From a bacterium (GTDB taxonomy: Bacteria; Eremiobacterota; Eremiobacteria; Baltobacterales; Baltobacteraceae), in assembly GCA_021781095.1 (NCBI GenBank), contig JAJXXM010000151.1, positions 1-14,312 on the forward strand: DNA of 14,312 nucleotides, read 5' to 3'. The notes beneath the pieces were generated by a model. The model saw only the letters and a list, made by a program, of their open reading frames with translations. It searched no databases and was not told the DNA's origin. A program made the translations under genes and the position numbers. Below, piece after piece: positions 661-9,076 of the stretch (the stretch's first letter is position 1; every line of letters starts with the position of its first letter).

Positions 661-1401
661 TCAGTGCGCCGGGTGGTAGCCTTCCATTGCGAGCAGGCGG
701 GCTTTGAATTCCACGCCGTACCCGTAGCGATGCAACGCGCCGGTTGAATCGACCACGCGATGGCAGGGCACCAGGATGGGAATGGGGTTGCGCGCCATGA
801 CGCGTCCGACCGCTCGCGCCGCGCTGGGGCGGCCGATTTGTTTGGCGAGCCACCCGTAGGAGCGGACCTCCCCCGGCGGGATCTCGACGGTCGCACGCAG
901 GGTCGCTTGTTCGAAGGGCGTCAGGTCGCTCACGTCAACTTGCGACGTGTCAACATGCCAGGTGGTGAAGAATTTCTCGATCGTCGCGCGGAGGGTCGGC
1001 GGGAGTTCGGCGCGATCGACGGGGCGACGCAGGCGCCGTTCGACGCGAGCGACGACTTCCTCGAACGCCTCTCCCAGATCGATGCCGATATAGGCGATGC
1101 GTGCTTCGCGGTGCCCGACGTAGAGCCGGCCGATCGGCGAATCGACGAGCGCGAGGTGTACCGGGTCGAGCCGCTCGCGGCGCTGGAGCTGCGCGATATG
1201 CTCGACGACTTTGCGGGCGAGGTCGCAGGTCGGTTCGGGATCGGGAAGCGATTCGAGCGTATGCGCGAGCGCCTCGTATTGGCGGTAGGCCTCGTTGCAG
1301 GTCGGGCAGGCATCCACGTGCGTGTGGACCGCCTCGTTCAGCGTTGCCGTCCCCTCGCCGCGGACTTCGTCCCACATCGCGTCGACATCACGACAACGCA
1401 T
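661..1401 (-). CDS. Zinc-binding anti-sigma domain fused to O6-alkylguanine-DNA alkyltransferase
   Basis: A 246-aa two-part protein. Residues 1-50 resemble a zf-HC2 anti-sigma domain: Cys3, then His28-x3-Cys32-x2-Cys35, the zinc-binding signature of ZAS anti-sigma factors. Residues about 83-246 are a complete Ogt/AGT alkyltransferase, with the N-terminal subdomain starting at SPIGRLYVG and the active site PCHRVV at 212-217. Relative to human AGT, the residues line up without gaps: Tyr182 (Y114), Arg196 (arginine finger R128), Asn205 (N137), acceptor Cys213 (C145), His214 (H146) and Glu240 (E172). The repair half therefore looks active, transferring alkyl groups from guanine to Cys213 irreversibly. 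There is no membrane segment, so it should be cytosolic. The ATG at 1401 has a GAGGAG ribosome site 7 bases upstream, inside the sigma gene, and overlaps it by 14 bases. That overlap argues that it is the cognate anti-sigma factor. The alkylation-sensor role is inference. Confidence 0.9.
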   Translation of the reverse strand: MRCRDVDAMWDEVRGEGTATLNEAVHTHVDACPTCNEAYRQYEALAHTLESLPDPEPTCDLARKVVEHIAQLQRRERLDPVHLALVDSPIGRLYVGHREARIAYIGIDLGEAFEEVVARVERRLRRPVDRAELPPTLRATIEKFFTTWHVDTSQVDVSDLTPFEQATLRATVEIPPGEVRSYGWLAKQIGRPSAARAVGRVMARNPIPILVPCHRVVDSTGALHRYGYGVEFKARLLAMEGYHPAH

Positions 1402-2071
1402 CGGTCAACTCCTCATCGGTCTCTTGAACGAAACGGCCCAACTGTGGGCCGAGAATCCGGCGGAGAATGCGCACCGCGCGGTGGACGTGCGATTTCACGG
1501 TCCCGATCGGTTGGCCGAGAATCTCGGCGATCTCGGGGTGGCTGCGCCCGTCGATAAAGCGCAGCGTTGCAGCCGCGCGTAAATGGGTCGGTAGCGAGAG
1601 CAGCGCCCGTTCGACCATCGCGACTTCGTCGTTCCGTTCGACGACGGTCTCGGGCTGCACCGGCTTGTCACCGGCATCGCGGAGGAGCGCGTCGGGATCG
1701 GCGAGCGCGTCGATCGCAACGCTCGGAGGTTTCTTACTCCGGAGACGATTCCGCGTGACGTTGAGGGCGATGGTATAGAGCCACGGCTGCAAACGCAGAT
1801 CGCGCCGTTGTTCCTCGCCCATCTTTCCGAGAGCACGAAACGCACGAACGAACGCATCTTGGACGATCTCCTCGGCGTCCTCGCGATTGCCCGTCATGCG
1901 CAGGGCGAAGCCGTAGAGGCGTCGCTGGTAATCGCTGACGATGCGATCGAAGGTCGAGGTGCTCGGGATGAATGCCGACGCCGTCGCAGGCGAGCCATCG
2001 CCCGAAACTCGCGCCCTCCCGACCGCAGGTAGCAACGGAATCTCCCTCATCGGCGGCGCGTAGGCAATCAT
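1388..2071 (-). CDS. ECF-family RNA polymerase sigma factor
   Basis: A 227-aa group IV (extracytoplasmic function) sigma-70 factor. Region 2 spans about residues 41-115 and includes a NREDAEEIVQDAFVRAF stretch plus the WLYTIALNVTRNRLR segment used in promoter -10 recognition. Region 4 spans about 155-208, with a helix-turn-helix around PEIAEILGQPIGTVKSHVHR for the -35 element. Region 3 is absent, as expected for ECF factors. The first 40 residues are a poorly conserved extension. The ATG at 2071 is preferred because a G-rich ribosome site (GGGGGG) lies a few bases upstream; an ATG at 2050 lacks one. The 3' end overlaps the anti-sigma/alkyltransferase start by 14 bases, the usual arrangement for a sigma/anti-sigma pair. 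It starts 36 bases after the secreted-protein gene and may be co-transcribed with it. The target regulon cannot be read from the sequence. Confidence 0.94.
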   Translation of the reverse strand: MIAYAPPMREIPLLPAVGRARVSGDGSPATASAFIPSTSTFDRIVSDYQRRLYGFALRMTGNREDAEEIVQDAFVRAFRALGKMGEEQRRDLRLQPWLYTIALNVTRNRLRSKKPPSVAIDALADPDALLRDAGDKPVQPETVVERNDEVAMVERALLSLPTHLRAAATLRFIDGRSHPEIAEILGQPIGTVKSHVHRAVRILRRILGPQLGRFVQETDEELTDALS

Positions 2072-2107
2072 ATGATCCCCCCAACCGCCGCGGCCCGAAC
2101 GACGGTT

Positions 2108-2887
2108 TCACGGCAAGCGGGTCGGTTTCCCTCGTTTCGGTGTTGGTGAGGCCGAGGTGGCCGGTACGGGCAAACAATCGGGTGCGAAACGTCGCACGAA
2201 AAGAATTTCGATCGGGCCGCTCTGCCCCGAGGCGGCGAGCACGCCGTGAATCTGCAGGCGGCTACGCAGGCGGACGAGGGCCCCGGTCGCGTCGTACTCG
2301 GCGGTCCCGACGAGCGAGATCGTGCCGTCGATACTCGCGGTCGGGAGCTCCGGCAATGGCCCGCGCATCGGGCCCGACGCGGTAAATGCAACGCGTACGC
2401 CGCCGGCTGGAGCGCGCTCGGGCATGCCGGCGCCGCGCAGGGTACCGTGAAGCGGCGCCCCACCCAGCGGCGAGGACGCGGTAAACGGAATCGCTTGTTG
2501 GAGTGCGGCGAGTGCGGCCAGGGTTTTCGCATCGATGCGCGCCGCGAACGGTTGGTCGAGCAACGAGAGCGAGTCTTCGTCTTGGTTGAGCGAGGTCCGA
2601 ATCTCGCGAAGGTCGGGGGTGAGCAGGCGAACGACGCGCGCGGTTTTCCGGCGGACGTGCGTGCCGAGCCGCTTCGTGTAATGGATGACGTTTTCGAAAC
2701 GGAGGTCGGCCCCGTCGGGGCGGACGCGCAGGCTCTGCGTGCCGTCGTAGAGCACCGTCATCACGTTGCGCCCGTCGATCGTATAGGCGTCTTCACCGTG
2801 GAAACGCGAGATCGGCGAGGAGCATTGCGTGCCTACGTTTGCGCCGAGCAGCAGAACCGAGAAAAGCGCGGCGACGATTCGTTTCAT
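2108..2887 (-). CDS. Secreted or periplasmic protein of unknown function
   Basis: A 259-aa protein I do not recognise. The N-terminus MKRIVAALFSVLLLGANVG is a clear Sec signal peptide (basic n-region, hydrophobic core). The Cys just after it (GTQC) does not fit a lipobox, so a lipoprotein is unlikely. The mature part alternates short polar and hydrophobic stretches suggesting beta structure (residues about 25-110 and 140-230) and ends in a Pro/Thr/Lys-rich tail. The ATG at 2887 is chosen over more upstream codons because it begins the signal peptide and overlaps the stop of the preceding membrane-protein gene by four bases (ATGA), so the two are probably translationally coupled. The sigma factor gene follows after 36 bases. 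A cell-envelope role is inferred only from the signal peptide and neighbours. Confidence 0.75.
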   Translation of the reverse strand: MKRIVAALFSVLLLGANVGTQCSSPISRFHGEDAYTIDGRNVMTVLYDGTQSLRVRPDGADLRFENVIHYTKRLGTHVRRKTARVVRLLTPDLREIRTSLNQDEDSLSLLDQPFAARIDAKTLAALAALQQAIPFTASSPLGGAPLHGTLRGAGMPERAPAGGVRVAFTASGPMRGPLPELPTASIDGTISLVGTAEYDATGALVRLRSRLQIHGVLAASGQSGPIEILFVRRFAPDCLPVPATSASPTPKRGKPTRLP

Positions 2888-3558
2888 GGATGCGAGGAAG
2901 ATGCTTCGACGAACGTACGCGCGGTCACTGCCGCTAATGCGACCTGCGCGATGACGCCGAGCACCAACGTTCCGGGGGCACGCGTGCCGTGCGGCAGCAG
3001 AACGGCGATCTCTAAGAGGATTGCTTGCAGGCCGAATTGCGCTGCGAGCAACAGGCACATTCGCCCGAAGTTCCGCGGCTGCATCGCCAGCGAGAACGTG
3101 CGTGCGACCGCATGGGGGAGGAGGGCGAGGGCCGGAATATCGTCATCGAGCGTTGCGGCGACGTCGGCGTAGATCGTCGCGGCGAGCAGTGGTACGAGGA
3201 GCAGATCCCAGAGGATCATACTCGGCGCGGTGGTCAGCGCTTGAACGAGCGAGAGGATGAGATCGATCAGCAGCACGCTCCACGAGCGCTCGAGCAGGCG
3301 TTCGAGCGCATTCTTCAAGGGGCGAGGCGATCCGTCGGGGAGATCGGTGACCCAGAGGTAGATGAAGCTCGCGACCAGCGGAAGCGCGATCAGTGGCGCC
3401 GCGCTCTCGGCGACGAGCGGGCGCATCGGCGCGTAGGAGATCGCCAACCCCAGGGCACAGGCGATCGCGGTTGCGACGAGCGTGCCGCGCCATCGTTCGC
3501 GCAAGCGTTCGAATGCCTCGCGCAGCAGTGCCGAGAGCGCGATGCGTTGTTGGTGCAC
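2884..3558 (-). CDS. Polytopic membrane protein of unknown function
   Basis: A 224-aa protein with about six predicted transmembrane helices, near residues 25-45, 53-73, 93-112, 114-136, 167-188 and 197-217. An amphipathic N-terminal stretch rich in Arg/Glu/Leu (residues 7-24) precedes the first helix. Between helices 4 and 5 is a loop with an Asp cluster (DDD near 138-140). I see no transporter, protease or enzyme motif. The start is a GTG at 3558, six bases after the stop of the upstream 114-aa gene; its ribosome site is weak, so coupling to upstream translation is likely. The 3' end overlaps the secreted-protein gene by four bases. The three genes look like one envelope-related operon. Confidence 0.78.
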   Translation of the reverse strand: MHQQRIALSALLREAFERLRERWRGTLVATAIACALGLAISYAPMRPLVAESAAPLIALPLVASFIYLWVTDLPDGSPRPLKNALERLLERSWSVLLIDLILSLVQALTTAPSMILWDLLLVPLLAATIYADVAATLDDDIPALALLPHAVARTFSLAMQPRNFGRMCLLLAAQFGLQAILLEIAVLLPHGTRAPGTLVLGVIAQVALAAVTARTFVEASSSHP

Positions 3559-3956: not shown

Positions 3957-4700
3957 ATGAACGATCTATCAAACCGTCGCCGTCGCGAACAGCCTCCGGA
4001 GGGAGGCGGTTGGATGCCGGTCCTACTTCTCGGGCTTTTGGTCGTGCTCGCGGGCCTCGCTATCGGCGGGTTCGCCGGGCGGCTCACGGCGATGCACGCG
4101 CATCTTCCGACGAGCGTTCCGAGTATTTCGCCGATTCCCACGGTGACGCCGACGCTCGCGCCGGTCGCAACGCCGACCCCGAAAACCACGCCAAGCCCGA
4201 AACCCACGCCCTCGCCGAAGACGAGCCCAACGCCGAAGGCGACGCCGAGCCCGGCACCCACGTTGACGCCGAGCGCTCCGCCCTCGCCGACCGAGCCTCC
4301 CTCGCCCGCTCCGGCGATCGTTCGGACGCCGAAGGCGGCGCTCCACTCACCGCGGCCATCGGTCGAGAAGACGGCACGGCCGAGCCCGGTGCCTTCGACG
4401 ACGATCGCGGGTTCGGCGGCACGTGCGTTGGTACGCGTCTATCTCGCCGATCTCGCGCGCGGCGATTCAGCGGCGGCGAGCGCGTTACTCGCTTCGGGGA
4501 GCCCCGACACGTTTATCGACGGGACGCTCCAAATGGGCACGGTAACGAGCGTGCCGACGACGGGCGGAGCGCAGAGCGTGACCGCGCACATTATCGTCGG
4601 CGTGAAGCATTACGTGATGTCGTTTCTCGTCGCGGAACGTGCCGGACACGCCCGCATTCTCTCGCACCAGGCGAGTTCGACTATTCCGAGCCCGCCTTAG
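3957..4700 (+). CDS. Membrane-anchored protein with long Pro/Thr/Ser/Lys linker
   Basis: A 247-aa protein with three parts. Residues 1-19 are charged (RRRR near 7-10). Residues 20-42 form one transmembrane helix, probably with the N-terminus inside. Residues about 51-150 are a low-complexity linker built from TPSPKP-like units, expected to be extended and outside the cell. Residues 151-247 are a small folded domain starting ARALVRVYLADLARGD, whose helix-then-strand pattern is loosely like NTF2/SnoaL-type folds; that resemblance is weak. The architecture resembles a wall- or peptidoglycan-spanning stalk. The start is the first ATG, without a good ribosome site. The final 20 bases overlap the end of sufU on the other strand. 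The function is unknown. Confidence 0.72.
   Translation: MNDLSNRRRREQPPEGGGWMPVLLLGLLVVLAGLAIGGFAGRLTAMHAHLPTSVPSISPIPTVTPTLAPVATPTPKTTPSPKPTPSPKTSPTPKATPSPAPTLTPSAPPSPTEPPSPAPAIVRTPKAALHSPRPSVEKTARPSPVPSTTIAGSAARALVRVYLADLARGDSAAASALLASGSPDTFIDGTLQMGTVTSVPTTGGAQSVTAHIIVGVKHYVMSFLVAERAGHARILSHQASSTIPSPP
4107..4400 (+). repeat. Low-complexity Pro/Thr/Ser/Lys-coding repeat tract
   Basis: This stretch encodes residues 51-148 of the membrane-anchored protein with degenerate units such as TPSPKP, TPSPKT and SPTPKAT, from recurring ACG-CCG and AGC-CCG codon pairs. The repeat is at the protein level, and the codons vary enough that it is not a perfect DNA repeat. Opposite frames are open only because of this composition. 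Confidence 0.8.
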
Positions 4701-5070
4701 CGAGGCCGGCGAGCGCCGCGCTCTTCAGAACGCTGAGCCCGAGCATCGCACATTTCATCCGCGTCGGGCTGATATCGATGCCCACGTTCTCCAGCACGTT
4801 CGCTTCGCCGAGCGCGATGAGGCTTTCGAGCGATTTTCCCTTGGCGCTCTCGACGAGCATCGAGGCTGACGCCTGTGAGATCGCGCAGCCCTTCCCCGAA
4901 AAACGAATATCGGCGACGTTCCCCGCATCGTCGACCTCGATCTCCACGCGCATTTCATCGCCGCAGAGCGGATTGCGATCCTCGGCTACCGCATCGGGTG
5001 CCGGCAAATGACCGAAATTCCGGGGGTTCCGGTAGTGGTCGAGGATGAAATCGCGGTAAAAATCGTCCAT
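4681..5070 (-). CDS. sufU: Iron-sulfur cluster assembly protein SufU
   Basis: A 129-aa U-type protein. In Gram-positive-type SUF systems SufU is a zinc-dependent sulfurtransferase that accepts persulfide sulfur from SufS. Three conserved cysteines are visible: Cys36 in NPLCGD (with Asp38), Cys62 in GKGCAIS and Cys107 in RMKCAML. The 44-residue spacing between the second and third Cys, and the Arg-Met-Lys before the last Cys instead of the IscU His, mark it as SufU rather than IscU. The N-terminus (DDFYRDFILDHYRNPRNFG) is typical of the family. It lies 23 bases after sufS and is the last gene of sufC-D-S-U. Its end overlaps the convergent membrane-protein gene by 20 bases. Confidence 0.95.
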   Translation of the reverse strand: MDDFYRDFILDHYRNPRNFGHLPAPDAVAEDRNPLCGDEMRVEIEVDDAGNVADIRFSGKGCAISQASASMLVESAKGKSLESLIALGEANVLENVGIDISPTRMKCAMLGLSVLKSAALAGLAKAGSE

Positions 5071-5093
5071 CGTTCGTTCCTAAGATTTCTCGG

Positions 5094-6353
5094 TTATGAA
5101 ATCCGAAAGATCGTCGCCGCTTTTTCTAAACCGGCGACGAGGGCATCGACGTCACGACGATCGTTGTAGAGGTAGAACGAAGCGCGGGCGGTTGCGGCGA
5201 GGTCGAGGCGTCCCATCAACGGCATCGTACAATGATGCCCCGCTCGTATGCAAATGCCTTCGGTGTCGAGAATCGACGCGAGATCGTGGGCGTGGATGTC
5301 GGCGAAATTCATCGATATGACGCCCGAGGAACGCTCCGGGTCGTGAGGGCCGTAGATCGCGAGGCCGCGCGCTTCGAGCGGCGCGAGCCGTTCGAAGGCA
5401 TAGGCGAGCAGGGCACGTTCGTGCGCCCGAACGTTCTCCATCCCGTAGGCGTCGAGATAGTCGATCGCCGTACCGAACGCGATCGCATCGGCGATATTCG
5501 AGGTGCCCGCCTCGAATTTCCACGGGAGTTCGTTGAAGGTCGCCCGTTCGTAGGAGACGCTGCGAATCATATCGCCGCCCGACAAAAACGGAGGCATCGC
5601 TTCGAGCAGGCGCCGCTTTCCATAGAGCACGCCGATGCCGGTCGGGCCGAGCATCTTGTGTGCCGAGAGTGCGTAGAAATCGGCGTCGAGCGCGCGCACG
5701 TCGACCGCGAGGTGCGGCGCGGCCTGCGCGCCGTCAACGAGAACGAGCGCTCCGGCGGCATGCGCGCGTGCGACGATCTCGGCGATAGGAAGGATCGTTC
5801 CCAGCGTGTTGCTGACGTGGGTGACGGCGACGAGCGCGCAGCCCTTCAGCAGGGTATCGAGATCGTCGAGGATCGGCTCGCCGCGGTCGTCGACTGGAAT
5901 GTACCGCACGTGTGCCCCGGTGCGCTCGGCGAGCAACTGCCAAGGGACGAGATTCGAATGATGTTCGAGTTGGGTGAGCAGAATGACGTCACCCGCACGC
6001 AGGTTGGCCCCTCCCCAGCTCCACGCGACGAGGTTGATCGCTTCGGTCGCATTTCGCGTCCAGATGATTTCGGCGGGCTCGCCCGCGTTGAGAAATCGAG
6101 CGACTTTCGCGCGCGCATCTTCGAAGGCGTCGGTCGCGCGAGCGGCGATTTCGTAGACGCCGCGATGGATGTTCGCATTGTATTCGCGATAGTAGCGATC
6201 GATCGCATCGATGACGACCTGGGGTTTCTGCGAGGTCGCGGCCGAGTCGAGATAGATCAGCGGCTTTCCGCGCGACGTGCGTTCGTTGAGAATCGGAAAA
6301 TCCGCTCGAACGTCGAGATCGGGCGTCACGGTCGCACTCGCTCCGCGGGTCAT
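5094..6353 (-). CDS. sufS: Cysteine desulfurase SufS
   Basis: A 419-aa PLP-dependent group II cysteine desulfurase that takes sulfur from L-cysteine and passes it as persulfide to SufU. The PLP-binding lysine is Lys233 in SAHKMLGPTG. The persulfide-carrying cysteine is Cys375 in RAGHHCTMPLM, the short-loop form typical of SufS. The N-terminal IYLDSAATSQKP and the NATEAINLVAWSWG segment also fit. Translation starts at the ATG at 6353, which overlaps the sufD stop by four bases (ATGA); an upstream extension in the same frame would lie inside sufD and is not family-like. Length is normal for the family. SufU follows, giving the SufS-SufU pair used in SUF systems without SufE. Confidence 0.96.
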   Translation of the reverse strand: MTRGASATVTPDLDVRADFPILNERTSRGKPLIYLDSAATSQKPQVVIDAIDRYYREYNANIHRGVYEIAARATDAFEDARAKVARFLNAGEPAEIIWTRNATEAINLVAWSWGGANLRAGDVILLTQLEHHSNLVPWQLLAERTGAHVRYIPVDDRGEPILDDLDTLLKGCALVAVTHVSNTLGTILPIAEIVARAHAAGALVLVDGAQAAPHLAVDVRALDADFYALSAHKMLGPTGIGVLYGKRRLLEAMPPFLSGGDMIRSVSYERATFNELPWKFEAGTSNIADAIAFGTAIDYLDAYGMENVRAHERALLAYAFERLAPLEARGLAIYGPHDPERSSGVISMNFADIHAHDLASILDTEGICIRAGHHCTMPLMGRLDLAATARASFYLYNDRRDVDALVAGLEKAATIFRIS

Positions 6354-7558
6354 GAGAGCGTTTCGACGATTCGCTGCGTGAGGGCGTCGCGCAGTGCGGC
6401 GGTGGGGAACGCATCGACGGTCGGTTCGAAAAAGCCCAGCGCGATCGTCCTGCGTGCTTCGCTTTCGTCGAGACCGCGCGAACGGAGGTAGAAGATTTGT
6501 TCGTCGTCGATCGCTCCGACCGTCGCGCCGTGATAGGCCTTCACATCGTTGCACGCGATCTCGAGTGCGGGAACCGAATCGATGTGCGCGCGCGGCGCCA
6601 AGATGAGCGCGTCGTCGCGCAACGAGGCGTCGCTCCCCGCCGCGTGCGGAAGGATGACGATGTTGCCGAGAAAGCGCGCGATCGCGCTATCGCCGGCGGC
6701 GGCCTTCACGACGGTCTGCGACGTCGTATGGCCGGCAACGTGACGTACGCTCGCCGTGACGTCGAGATGTCCGGCGCCGGTCGGCAGAAAGAGCGCGCTC
6801 TGTTCGAGGCGTGCGCCCGGAGCGTCGAGCGAACTTTCGCGGTCGCGAAGGATCAACCCGGCGCCGAAATCGGCGGTAGCGAGGACGGCCGATCCGTCGC
6901 GGCCGACGCGCGCGACGGCACTTTCCAACGCGACGCTATGGGCGTCGACGCGCTGCGCGGTTGCGAAGTGCAGGTGGGCGCGCTCTTCGACGATGAGTTC
7001 GCTGCTGGCGGCGACGAACGAACCGTCATCGCACTGAAATTCTACGATCACCGTCGCGCGGGCGCCCGCTTCTAACAGGACGAGCGTGCGCGGAAACGCC
7101 GACGACGCGCCGATGCGATAGGTGATGAAGATCGGTTCGGCGACGTCGTAATCGGCGGGGACGTGAACGAGCGCGCCAAAGGAGCTCAGCCCCATCGTGA
7201 GCGCGCCGAATTTCCAGCGTTCGATATCGACGAGCCGCGTGATGCGAGCGAGCGTTTCGGAATGCTCGCGCGCTGCGGTCGCGAGCGGAAGGGCGATCGC
7301 ACGGCCGAGCGAGCCCGAGAAGCGTACGCCCTGCTCTGCATCGACTCCCGAGATCGGATCGAAGGCGAGTGCGTCGAGGTCAACCTTCCAGCGACGGTTC
7401 GGGCGGGTGCGCCCGGAGCCGCTCGTTAGGTAGAGGTCGATCGCGCGCGAGCGCGCGGCGTGCGAAAGAATGCGCGCGTCGGCGAGAGCGGCGGCACTAT
7501 GAAGGCGGTCGCGGGTCGGCGGGGCAAGGACGCCTTCAGGCACGCGCACCGACCTCAT
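6350..7558 (-). CDS. sufD: Fe-S cluster assembly protein SufD (SufBD family), with Cys-to-Ala at a key site
   Basis: A 402-aa SufBD-family protein from the ATG at 7558; a GTG at 7582 or GTGs just downstream are alternatives, and the true start is uncertain because it overlaps the end of sufC. The C-terminal part matches SufD rather than SufB: the DVK-x2-HGATVG block followed by DDEQIFYLRSRGLDE. In E. coli SufD this block carries Cys358 and His360, and His360 is needed for cluster assembly in the SufBC2D complex. Here the Cys position is Ala341 and the His is kept (His343). A cysteine (Cys337) sits four residues earlier. SufD normally pairs with SufB, and no sufB lies in this window. It overlaps sufC upstream and sufS downstream, so it is surely in the same operon. 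Confidence 0.9.
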   Translation of the reverse strand: MRSVRVPEGVLAPPTRDRLHSAAALADARILSHAARSRAIDLYLTSGSGRTRPNRRWKVDLDALAFDPISGVDAEQGVRFSGSLGRAIALPLATAAREHSETLARITRLVDIERWKFGALTMGLSSFGALVHVPADYDVAEPIFITYRIGASSAFPRTLVLLEAGARATVIVEFQCDDGSFVAASSELIVEERAHLHFATAQRVDAHSVALESAVARVGRDGSAVLATADFGAGLILRDRESSLDAPGARLEQSALFLPTGAGHLDVTASVRHVAGHTTSQTVVKAAAGDSAIARFLGNIVILPHAAGSDASLRDDALILAPRAHIDSVPALEIACNDVKAYHGATVGAIDDEQIFYLRSRGLDESEARRTIALGFFEPTVDAFPTAALRDALTQRIVETLS

Positions 7559-8309
7559 CGCGAATGCCGTCGTACCCTTCACGTTCGATACGCTCGGCGA
7601 GGTCGTGGGCGCCGGTGAGGACGATGCGCCCGTCCATCATGACGTGGACGACATCGGGCGTGACGTGTTTGAGAATGCGGGGATAGTGGGTGATGATCAG
7701 CATGCCGGCCTGCCGTCCCTCATCGCTCGCGCGCAGCGCGGAGATGGAATCGCCGACGGCGCGCAACGCGTCGACATCGAGCCCGGAATCGGTCTCGTCG
7801 AGGATCGCGTATTTCGGTGCGAGCATCGCCATTTGGAGCATCTCGAGGCGCTTCTTTTCGCCCCCGGAGAAACCGTCGTTGAGGTAGCGGCCCATGAAGG
7901 ACGGGTCCATCCCCAAAATCTCCATTTTTTCGACGAGCATCGCTCGGAACGCCGCCGGAGCGAGCGAACCCGGGCGAACCGCCTGGCGGGCGGCGTGAAG
8001 GAAGTTGGCGACCTTCACTCCGGGGATCGCGGCCGGATACTGGAAGGAGAGGAAGAGCCCCGCGCGAGCCCGCTTCTCCGGGGTGAGATCGAGCAGCGAG
8101 GTGCCGTCGAGCGTCGCACTTCCGGCCGTGACCTGGTAGTGTGGGTGCCCGGCCAACGAGAGGGCGAGCGTGGATTTCCCGCTGCCGTTCGGGCCCATGA
8201 GGGCGTGAATCTTCCCCGGCTCGACGACGAGGTCGATTCCCCGGAGAATCTCGGTGTTTTCAACGGTCGCGCGCAACCCTGCGACGCGTAAACCCATCGT
8301 TTCGCTCAC
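7536..8309 (-). CDS. sufC: Fe-S cluster assembly ATPase SufC
   Basis: An ABC-type ATPase that works as a soluble dimer with SufB/SufD scaffold proteins. From a GTG start at 8309 it has Walker A GPNGSGKST (about 39-47), the Q-loop SFQYP (Gln90), signature FSGGEKKR (147-154), Walker B AILDETDSGLD with catalytic Glu172, and the H-loop His208 in ITHYPRI. The LDETDSGLDVDAL stretch is typical of SufC. Three starts are possible: TTG at 8315, GTG at 8309 (AGG six bases upstream) and ATG at 8297, which begins closest to the family consensus. It is the first gene of the minus-strand suf operon and has a good promoter about 40 bases upstream. The end overlaps sufD. Confidence 0.95.
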   Translation of the reverse strand: MSETMGLRVAGLRATVENTEILRGIDLVVEPGKIHALMGPNGSGKSTLALSLAGHPHYQVTAGSATLDGTSLLDLTPEKRARAGLFLSFQYPAAIPGVKVANFLHAARQAVRPGSLAPAAFRAMLVEKMEILGMDPSFMGRYLNDGFSGGEKKRLEMLQMAMLAPKYAILDETDSGLDVDALRAVGDSISALRASDEGRQAGMLIITHYPRILKHVTPDVVHVMMDGRIVLTGAHDLAERIEREGYDGIRDEVGARA

Positions 8310-8356
8310 TACCAACCTGCTCCCGATCTTGAAAAATGTGTGCTTGCTCTCGGGAT

Positions 8357-8385
8357 ATCGTAGCCGCGCTTTCCTAGAAAGTCAA
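8357..8385 (-). promoter_or_regulatory. Housekeeping-type promoter of sufCDSU
   Basis: On the minus strand a -35 TTGACT (8380-8385) and a -10 TACGAT (8357-8362) are separated by exactly 17 bases. Transcription would begin near 8350, giving a leader of about 40 bases before sufC. The -35 lies inside the inverted repeat that may bind the SufR-like regulator, so binding there would block it. Confidence 0.65.
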
Positions 8386-8406
8386 GGAAAAACTTTACTA
8401 TCTAGG
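8373..8406. promoter_or_regulatory. Candidate operator: nested inverted repeats between the suf promoters
   Basis: Outer arms CCTAG (8373-8377) and CTAGG (8402-8406) enclose inner arms AAAGT (8378-8382) and ACTTT (8392-8396); the two pairs are off-centre by about 2.5 bases. The element covers the -35 of the sufC promoter and the candidate -35 of the regulator. SufR proteins bind inverted repeats in such intergenic regions, so autoregulation plus control of sufC is plausible. The motif differs from the cyanobacterial CAAC-N6-GTTG, so it is only a candidate. Confidence 0.4.
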
Positions 8407-8422
8407 TCGCACGTGCTAGAAT
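8394..8422 (+). promoter_or_regulatory. Candidate promoter of the SufR-like regulator, near-leaderless
   Basis: TTTACT (8394-8399) and TAGAAT (8417-8422) are separated by 17 bases. The -10 matches consensus at five of six positions. Transcription would start near 8429, only two or three bases before the ATG at 8432, and there is no Shine-Dalgarno, so the mRNA may be leaderless. Confidence 0.45.
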
Positions 8423-8431
8423 CCGCGGTAG

Positions 8432-9076
8432 ATGCACGCAGATCGTTTCTTCCAGAGTACCCGAGGGCGGATCGTCGAAGAACTGCGCCGGCGCGGAAGC
8501 GCCTCGGCGGCGGATCTTGCGGCCTCGTTTAACCTTTCGCCGAATGCGGTGCGCCAGCAGCTCATCGTCCTCGAACGCGACGGGCTGGTCGTCGAGCGCT
8601 CGGTCCGGCGCGGCCCCACCAAACCGACCCTGGAATTCTCGCTGACCCCGCTCGCCGACCGGTATTTCCCTCAGGCCTATGACCGGATGCTCTCCGCCGT
8701 GCTGCGGGAGCTGCGCGAGCAGCATGGTCCCGAGGCGGTCGAGCGTCTCTTCGACGGTATCGCGGAGCGGACGCTCGCGAAGGTCCGCGAGCGCATCACC
8801 GGCGACGATACGCACGAGCGCGCCGCGCAGCTCGGCGACGTGTTACGCGAGCAGGGAGTATCGGCGACCGTCAACCTCATCGAGGGCGGCGTCGAACTGC
8901 GCGAGCATCATTGCCCCTACTCCGAGGTCGCGAAAGAGAACCCCGAGGTCTGCAGCGTGATCCATCGCGTCATCGACGAAACCATCGGCGAGCACGCTCA
9001 GACGGAGTCGATCGCAACCGGTGGGCGCGAGTGTCGGTTCGAAGTGCGAACGGCCTCGGCCGTCGCCGCCCCGTAA
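8432..9076 (+). CDS. sufR: SufR-like iron-sulfur transcriptional regulator
   Basis: A 214-aa winged-helix regulator. Residues about 9-62 hold the DNA-binding domain (ADLAASFNLSPNAVRQQLIV as the helix-turn-helix, then a wing with RRG near 59-61). The C-terminal part has Cys161-x12-Cys174 in a HHCPY...VCSVIHR context and Cys201 in GGRECRFEV. SufR proteins hold a cluster through such cysteines and repress suf genes when it is present; C-x12-C is the signature spacing, and three Cys are visible here. Divergence from sufC across a 122-base gap with an inverted repeat supports control of both units. The ATG at 8432 has no ribosome site, consistent with a leaderless transcript. Confidence 0.88.
   Translation: MHADRFFQSTRGRIVEELRRRGSASAADLAASFNLSPNAVRQQLIVLERDGLVVERSVRRGPTKPTLEFSLTPLADRYFPQAYDRMLSAVLRELREQHGPEAVERLFDGIAERTLAKVRERITGDDTHERAAQLGDVLREQGVSATVNLIEGGVELREHHCPYSEVAKENPEVCSVIHRVIDETIGEHAQTESIATGGRECRFEVRTASAVAAP

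Follow-up and report, generated by a model that had tools for sequence, protein, structure and literature searches.

Ada, which detects DNA alkylation by becoming alkylated itself, has been the textbook example of such a sensor. Among extracytoplasmic function (ECF) sigma factors, the ECF122 grouping is reportedly that of Casas-Pastor from 2021, which we take from a later review. In the accessible part of a 2022 review, ECF122 has O6-methylguanine methyltransferase genes as conserved neighbors and a model protein from Cellulomonas, and it is placed among the ECF groups that have no anti-sigma factor and whose mechanism is unknown (PMC8999054). O6-alkylguanine-DNA alkyltransferases (AGTs) are also known as parts of larger proteins, the available text of another article naming AGT-EndoV of Ferroplasma and AGT-2 of C. 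elegans (PMC10779285). Here we analyze a 14,312-nt stretch of DNA (the window; contig JAJXXM010000151.1 of assembly GCA_021781095.1, Baltobacteraceae, Eremiobacterota), in which an ECF sigma factor gene is followed by one reading frame that joins an anti-sigma-like zinc domain to a complete AGT. We consider it rather probable that the two genes encode a sigma factor and its anti-sigma factor, both cytoplasmic, and that the latter serves both as DNA-alkylation sensor and as repair enzyme. The author of an earlier note on this DNA knew of no described system of this kind. This stands for the fusion, as no AGT fused to an anti-sigma domain was found in the accessible text of the literature searched, and gives way for the gene neighborhood, since AGT genes beside ECF122 sigma genes appear in PMC8999054.

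Anti-sigma-like and alkyltransferase domains in one reading frame

The fusion protein of 246 aa (661..1401, minus strand, as are all operon features given here) is recognized from its open reading frame, its domain matches, and 93 full-length homologues elsewhere. The earlier note had described a zinc motif and a complete AGT in this single frame, and its coordinates, strand, and cited residues were all correct. The N-terminal anti-sigma-like domain (residues 1–77; 1171..1401) contains the H28-x3-C32-x2-C35 motif (1297..1320), and the AGT domain (residues 79–246 and the stop codon; 661..1167) contains the acceptor-cysteine motif P212-C213-H214-R215 (757..768). Both motifs are identical in 94 of 94 sequences, namely 93 distinct homologues and the window protein. 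The upstream partner is a 227-aa ECF sigma factor gene (1388..2071) that starts with an ATG at 2071–2069, matches the Pfam domains Sigma70_r2 (E = 4.1e-16) and Sigma70_r4_2 (E = 9.8e-14), and overlaps the start of the fusion with its 3′ end by 14 nt (1388–1401), exactly as previously noted.

The AGT half is matched by PF01035 (E = 1.1e-29, residues 162–241). Fusion residues 174–242 align with human AGT residues 106–174 (1eh6, 1qnt) over equal lengths and at an offset of 68, which bears out the earlier mapping of Y182, R196, N205, C213, H214, and E240 to human Y114, R128, N137, C145, H146, and E172. R196 is present in 93 of the 94 sequences, and the other five residues in all of them. The fusion has the fold and the catalytic residues of the O6-alkylguanine-DNA alkyltransferases and is predicted on this basis to accept alkyl groups at C213. 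In a structural search with the whole model, it was the AGT half alone that found matches. A Pfam scan found in the fusion neither PF02805 (Ada_Zn_binding) nor, among matches at E ≤ 1, an AraC-type helix-turn-helix.

In the N-terminal half, the Hx3Cx2C motif and the further upstream C3 form a set of four putative zinc ligands (C3, H28, C32, and C35), identical in all 94 sequences and typical of zinc-binding anti-sigma (ZAS) or class I anti-sigma factors. The AlphaFold2 model predicts four helices in residues 1–77 (4–13, 21–31, 33–50, and 61–76), the fourth of which leads through a four-residue link into the first AGT strand (81–88). A profile of 34 family sequences found the anti-sigma factor RsiW as its best match in the PDB (5wuq, E = 1.3e-4), followed by 3hug chain B (E = 0.094), which is labeled "probable conserved membrane protein" in its record and which we take to be the anti-sigma factor RslA; the third match was an unrelated protein (E = 0.78). 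The earlier assignment of the motif to zf-HC2 is confirmed, though less strongly by single sequence: the invariant ligands and the RsiW profile match agree with it, but the single-sequence scores of the window protein lie below the Pfam cut-off, at E = 0.1 for the whole protein and E = 0.0025 for its first 80 residues alone. In 16 of the 34 family members zf-HC2 is found at E ≤ 0.1, the best value being 7.6e-7. The N-terminal domain is thus anti-sigma-like, and it would be expected to bind both zinc and the sigma factor. Besides the zinc ligands and the five AGT residues, W10, D11, L49, L52, and H68 never vary among the 94 sequences. Both halves of the fusion are kept, because zinc ligands and AGT residues alike are unvarying.

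Sigma pairing and a promoter-like element

A protein search with the fusion returned 1892 relatives at E ≤ 1e-5, the best 120 of which have the length of the whole fusion (242–252 aa) and cover 98–100% of it. Names among the relatives point to Candidatus Eremiobacterota and Baltobacteraceae, with a few reading Dormibacteraeota, Acidoferrales, or Verrucomicrobiae that are perhaps misassigned bins. In a survey of 149 genomes from the phylum of genome G008, the full-length fusion is present in 93, one copy each. This rules out a chimeric assembly; absence of the fusion from related genomes was one of the outcomes that the earlier note had named as refuting its reading. The note had also raised the question of whether the architecture always adjoins an ECF sigma gene, and in all 91 evaluable loci it does: 91 of the 93 fusions directly follow the sigma gene, and the remaining two have only 64 and 103 nt of contig before them. 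The gap between the two genes is −14 nt in 75 loci, −11 nt in 5, and 0 to +8 nt in 11. Viewed from the other gene, a window-type sigma factor (E ≤ 1e-60) occurs in 92 of the 149 genomes, one copy each, and is followed by the fusion in all 92, the fusion being cut by the contig end in G062 (contig C22) and G091. No adjacent ECF gene was found at 14 other AGT-family loci (15 had been chosen, and L023 was left out as it had no BLAST hit), 8 of which were covered by 0.8–1.5 kb upstream only; at two of the 14, an ECF gene lies 2.2 and 3.3 kb away on the opposite strand. The adjacent ECF sigma factor is presumably the cognate partner of the fusion. Around 52 ZAS-AGT operons, no repair gene was recognized among the 25 gene clusters shown (at least 12 loci each); these include a pyroglutamyl-peptidase-like gene in 24 loci and a PHP-like gene in 51, both named by eye.

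Upstream of the sigma gene we read from the window sequence a putative −35 element, GTGAAACC (2104..2111), which is backed by motif statistics, and, 15 nt past it, a putative −10 element, GCGGTT (2083..2088), which is backed by motif scans. An upstream reading frame on the same strand (2108–3058) has its stop codon inside this putative −35 element. In relatives, a GTGAAACC-like element repeats about 32 nt before the sigma ATG. The pattern TGAAAC[CT]-N30-33-ATG is present in 60 of 91 sigma upstream regions (92 less one that was too short) and in none of 1741 control windows taken from other parts of these loci; 100 runs of Markov resampling gave a mean of 0.05 matches. A looser pattern is found in 74 of the 91 regions versus 8 of the 1741 control windows, and a stricter one that includes the ATG, run over 1.08 Mb of loci that overlap in part, matched 25 separate places, each just upstream of a sigma gene. 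Because the TGAAAC promoter-like element precedes the sigma genes far above controls, these data suggest that the ECF sigma factor transcribes its own operon. By eye, L048, L064, and many other relatives have an ACTCC...GGAGT inverted repeat just after the sigma ATG, followed by a GTG that could be the true sigma start, with a hidden Shine-Dalgarno site.

Scans of whole genomes with two variants of the pattern, in two sets of 20 genomes (G046, G047, G057, and G061 being in both), gave 38 and 31 matches. Counted by position, the sigma-operon site was matched in 14 genomes of the first set, of which 7 had no other match, and in 17 of the second, of which 10 had none. Matches elsewhere numbered 24 and 14, versus 19 and 5 for reversed control patterns, and no convincing wider regulon was found in these scans; a few further sigma targets are possible, as in the second set these 14 other matches outnumber the 5 of the controls. 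Ten loci with non-sigma matches were inspected, and in several of them the match lies within a long open frame. A site shared by G083 and G085 (L189 and L197) was set aside as a target, as, judged by eye, an NRAMP-like frame on the other strand either contains it or begins just downstream of it.

The fusion is not generally the sole competent AGT of its genome. In five of five close relatives that have the full-length fusion and a second AGT-family gene (G001–G004 and G008), the second protein reads VPAHR, with Ala in place of the acceptor Cys, and no competent AGT besides the fusion was found in these incomplete genomes. The small VPAHR proteins (L021–L025 and L028, from G001–G004, G007, and G008) resemble alkyltransferase-like proteins. 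The fusion is the only AGT family member seen in G005. A further AGT with PCHR is present in G007 (L011), a close relative whose fusion is cut by the contig end, and in 11 of 12 more distant fusion genomes, G102 alone being without one. An AGT-family protein of G102 (L257) has VPWHR. PF02805 was detected in 5 of 18 fusion-bearing genomes scanned and in none of 6 close relatives, by a scan that overlooks weakly scoring domains, one example being the G078 type B gene (see below). The sigma/fusion pair may do the work of Ada where Ada is missing, which hints at a way for alkylation repair to be induced in bacteria that have no Ada.

Other sigma factors paired with alkyltransferases

Nine loci of the same phylum (L099, L124–L130, and L132) contain another ECF sigma gene that overlaps or abuts an AGT gene. 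We refer to these as type B and to the ZAS-AGT operons as type A, which is also present in eight of the nine type B genomes. The type B sigma factors are 38–48% identical to the window sigma factor, and their AGT partners have no ZAS zinc motif and carry a C-terminal Ada-type zinc domain. In the phylum, PF02805 scores over the cut-off in 4 of the 7 type B proteins scanned and is weak in 3 (E about 0.002–0.004); type B loci of Nonomuraea (L201) and Rubrobacter (L202) also score over it, giving 6 of 9 scanned in all. All 11 loci, the nine and these two, have C-x3-C...C-x2-C and PCHRV. The profile alignment between types A and B reaches back to fusion residue 49, through the region of anti-sigma helix 4. 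In a 43-row tree that left out three long rows (bg_L226, bg_L228, and the truncated, contig-edge bg_L232), type A and type B sigma factors fall on one side with a support of 94/90; in the 46-row tree that includes the long rows, the truncated bg_L232 falls inside the A+B group. The AGT domains of types A and B group together with a support of only 80/76 (35-row tree). Near the type B genes, Oxygenase-NA (PF09859) is found at 3 of 9 loci, methyladenine glycosylase (PF03352) at 3 of 9, and either of them at 5 of 9. One type B protein used as a query gave at least 7181 matches at E ≤ 1e-20 from candidates limited to 7996; 119 of the best 120 have both PF01035 and PF02805, and among the matches listed a few are named Chloroflexota, Dormibacteraeota, or Vulcanimicrobiaceae. 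At L099 (G080, contig C154), both types of sigma system occur on the same contig, on opposite strands and with about 8 kb between them. At the start of contig C3 of the same genome, an ECF sigma fragment at the contig edge (L232) groups, through a long branch, with the sigma factors that are linked to AGTs, and the gene downstream of it is missing from the assembly.

Matches were also present in 390 plasmid records, and five Actinobacterial ones, picked for long or strong matches, were opened. An ECF gene adjoins the AGT gene in four of them (L199–L202; L200 and L201 by reading of frames), the fifth being that of Embleya (L203). The plasmid of Arthrobacter sp. StoSoilB13 (L200) has in a row ogt, an ECF sigma gene, an AGT with a short N-terminal extension, AlkB (PF13532, 5e-51), and Tag (PF03352, 2e-67), and that of Tsukamurella (L199) has ogt, sigma, AGT, Oxygenase-NA (PF09859, 9e-80), and AlkB. 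Since the L199 and L200 sigma factors fall outside the A+B clade in both sigma trees, these operons are a parallel to the window system and not its proven kin; we think that their sigma factors are candidates for the ECF122 type.

A broader proposal, for and against which we see the balance as about equal, is that a class of ECF sigma factors in several phyla is governed by suicide alkyltransferases rather than by Ada, and that self-alkylation frees the sigma factor. Individual lineages would have added an anti-sigma zinc domain, an Ada methylphosphotriester domain, or a short helix alone, and the fusion in the lineage of the window would combine the roles of repair enzyme, brake, and damage counter, its consumption triggering its resynthesis.

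Elsewhere in the window, the genes at 4681–9076 resemble by eye a SUF iron-sulfur cluster operon, with a divergent regulator at 8432–9076 that is presumably SufR-like; these names are our assumption from reading the frames.

Proposed mechanism, rival explanations, and known systems

The reading of the window pair as a sigma factor and an alkylation-sensing anti-sigma factor is partly supported by the anti-sigma-like domain joined to an intact AGT, the strict sigma pairing, the likely autoregulation, and the other sigma/alkyltransferase pairs, all of which are features of sequence. From these we infer sigma binding, zinc binding, alkyl transfer, release, and autoregulation. Sigma factor and fusion would be co-translated from the overlapping operon, and, to judge by homology and pairing, the N-terminal domain would hold the sigma factor inactive. 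The AGT domain, with its intact fold and residues, would repair O6-alkylguanine by irreversible alkyl transfer to C213. The alkylated AGT domain would then loosen and disturb anti-sigma helix 4, or the protein would be degraded, and the sigma factor would be freed. Alkylation makes AGT less stable and breaks up the contacts of its N-terminal domain with the C-terminal one, according to the accessible parts of PMC10779285 and PMC4605297, and helix 4 of class I anti-sigma factors contacts sigma region 2, according to that of PMC7406223. A release through helix 4 is plausible because alkylated AGT is destabilized, helix 4 contacts sigma, and helix 4 runs into the AGT strand. Finally, the freed sigma factor would transcribe its own operon from the TGAAAC promoter, whose motif is observed, and so restore both brake and repair enzyme. 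Damage would be counted by the suicide enzyme's own consumption in an Ada-like manner, with an ECF sigma factor replacing the DNA-binding domain of Ada.

If this is true, an anti-sigma fusion would connect the alkylation-sensing chemistry of Ada to an alternative sigma factor. The system would also provide a concrete and testable mechanism for the ECF/methyltransferase association, which the accessible part of PMC8999054 gives as unexplained. Such a switch would be compact, irreversible, and self-resetting, and laboratory strains could be equipped with a rebuilt version of it to report damage.

A redox or zinc switch is the strongest rival, and we regard it as unlikely: the ZAS zinc thiolates would be oxidized, nitrosated, or demetallated, as in RsrA, and free the sigma factor, with the AGT as cargo, a repair output delivered along with it. 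The invariant zinc ligands fit this explanation, as do a weak match of the fusion to RsrA (TIGR03988, E = 0.0083, below the cut-off) and extra Cys residues at positions 48, 51, and 59 in 77, 74, and 64 of the 94 sequences. In C. glutamicum, moreover, the table of genes changed upon deletion of the anti-sigma gene rshA includes a putative methylated-DNA-protein-cysteine methyltransferase (1.91), in the accessible part of PMC3489674. However, the window protein itself lacks Cys48 and Cys51, the AGT-AdaZn partners of the sister sigma factors keep the AGT and have no zinc motif, and a mere output needs no fusion into one chain.

We hold it improbable that methylating agents or methylphosphotriesters modify the zinc-site Cys of the anti-sigma domain directly, leaving C213 for repair only. 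The precedent is E. coli Ada, in which four Cys bind zinc and a methyl group transferred onto Cys38 switches the protein on (PMC10779285, accessible text), and the sister type B systems do carry an Ada zinc domain. The ZAS ligands of the fusion, one upstream Cys, one His, and two further Cys, differ from the four-Cys domain of Ada, and its lack of PF02805 again speaks against direct sensing. Still less probable is that lesion or DNA binding by the AGT domain, without alkyl transfer, pulls the anti-sigma domain off the sigma factor. AGTs bind DNA, and the AGT domain begins four residues after helix 4 in the AlphaFold2 model, but the invariant residues include catalytic ones beyond those for DNA binding, and the Cys-to-Ala alkyltransferase-like paralogue of the close relatives is not the protein that is fused. 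The least credible explanation, a mere operon of sigma factor and AGT whose N-terminal domain is no anti-sigma factor, draws on the sub-threshold zf-HC2 score of the window protein and on a weak structural match, and is countered by the RsiW profile match, the invariant ZAS ligands, and the strict sigma adjacency.

Compared with known systems, the proposed alkylation-sensing anti-sigma factor shares with Ada of the E. coli adaptive response an AGT domain, the union of repair enzyme and regulator in one chain, probable autoregulation, and alkyl transfer onto the protein as the proposed signal. Unlike Ada, it has neither the Ada zinc domain nor an AraC-type DNA-binding domain and would act by freeing an ECF sigma factor. 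With the ZAS or class I anti-sigma factors (RsrA, ChrR, RsiW, and RslA) it has in common the Hx3Cx2C motif with an upstream Cys, a predicted helical domain, the adjoining ECF gene, and the profile match to RsiW. It differs from them in its C-terminal part, which in place of a membrane segment or a cupin (the latter in ChrR) is a suicide enzyme of DNA repair. AGT-EndoV of Ferroplasma and C. elegans AGT-2 likewise hold an AGT within a larger protein, there joined to an endonuclease or a histone-like domain, as the available descriptions have it, and here to a likely regulatory domain. ECF122, compared by its partial description only, resembles the window system in having an ECF sigma gene with an AGT gene beside it and differs in being given as without an anti-sigma factor, whereas the window AGT itself carries an anti-sigma-like zinc domain.
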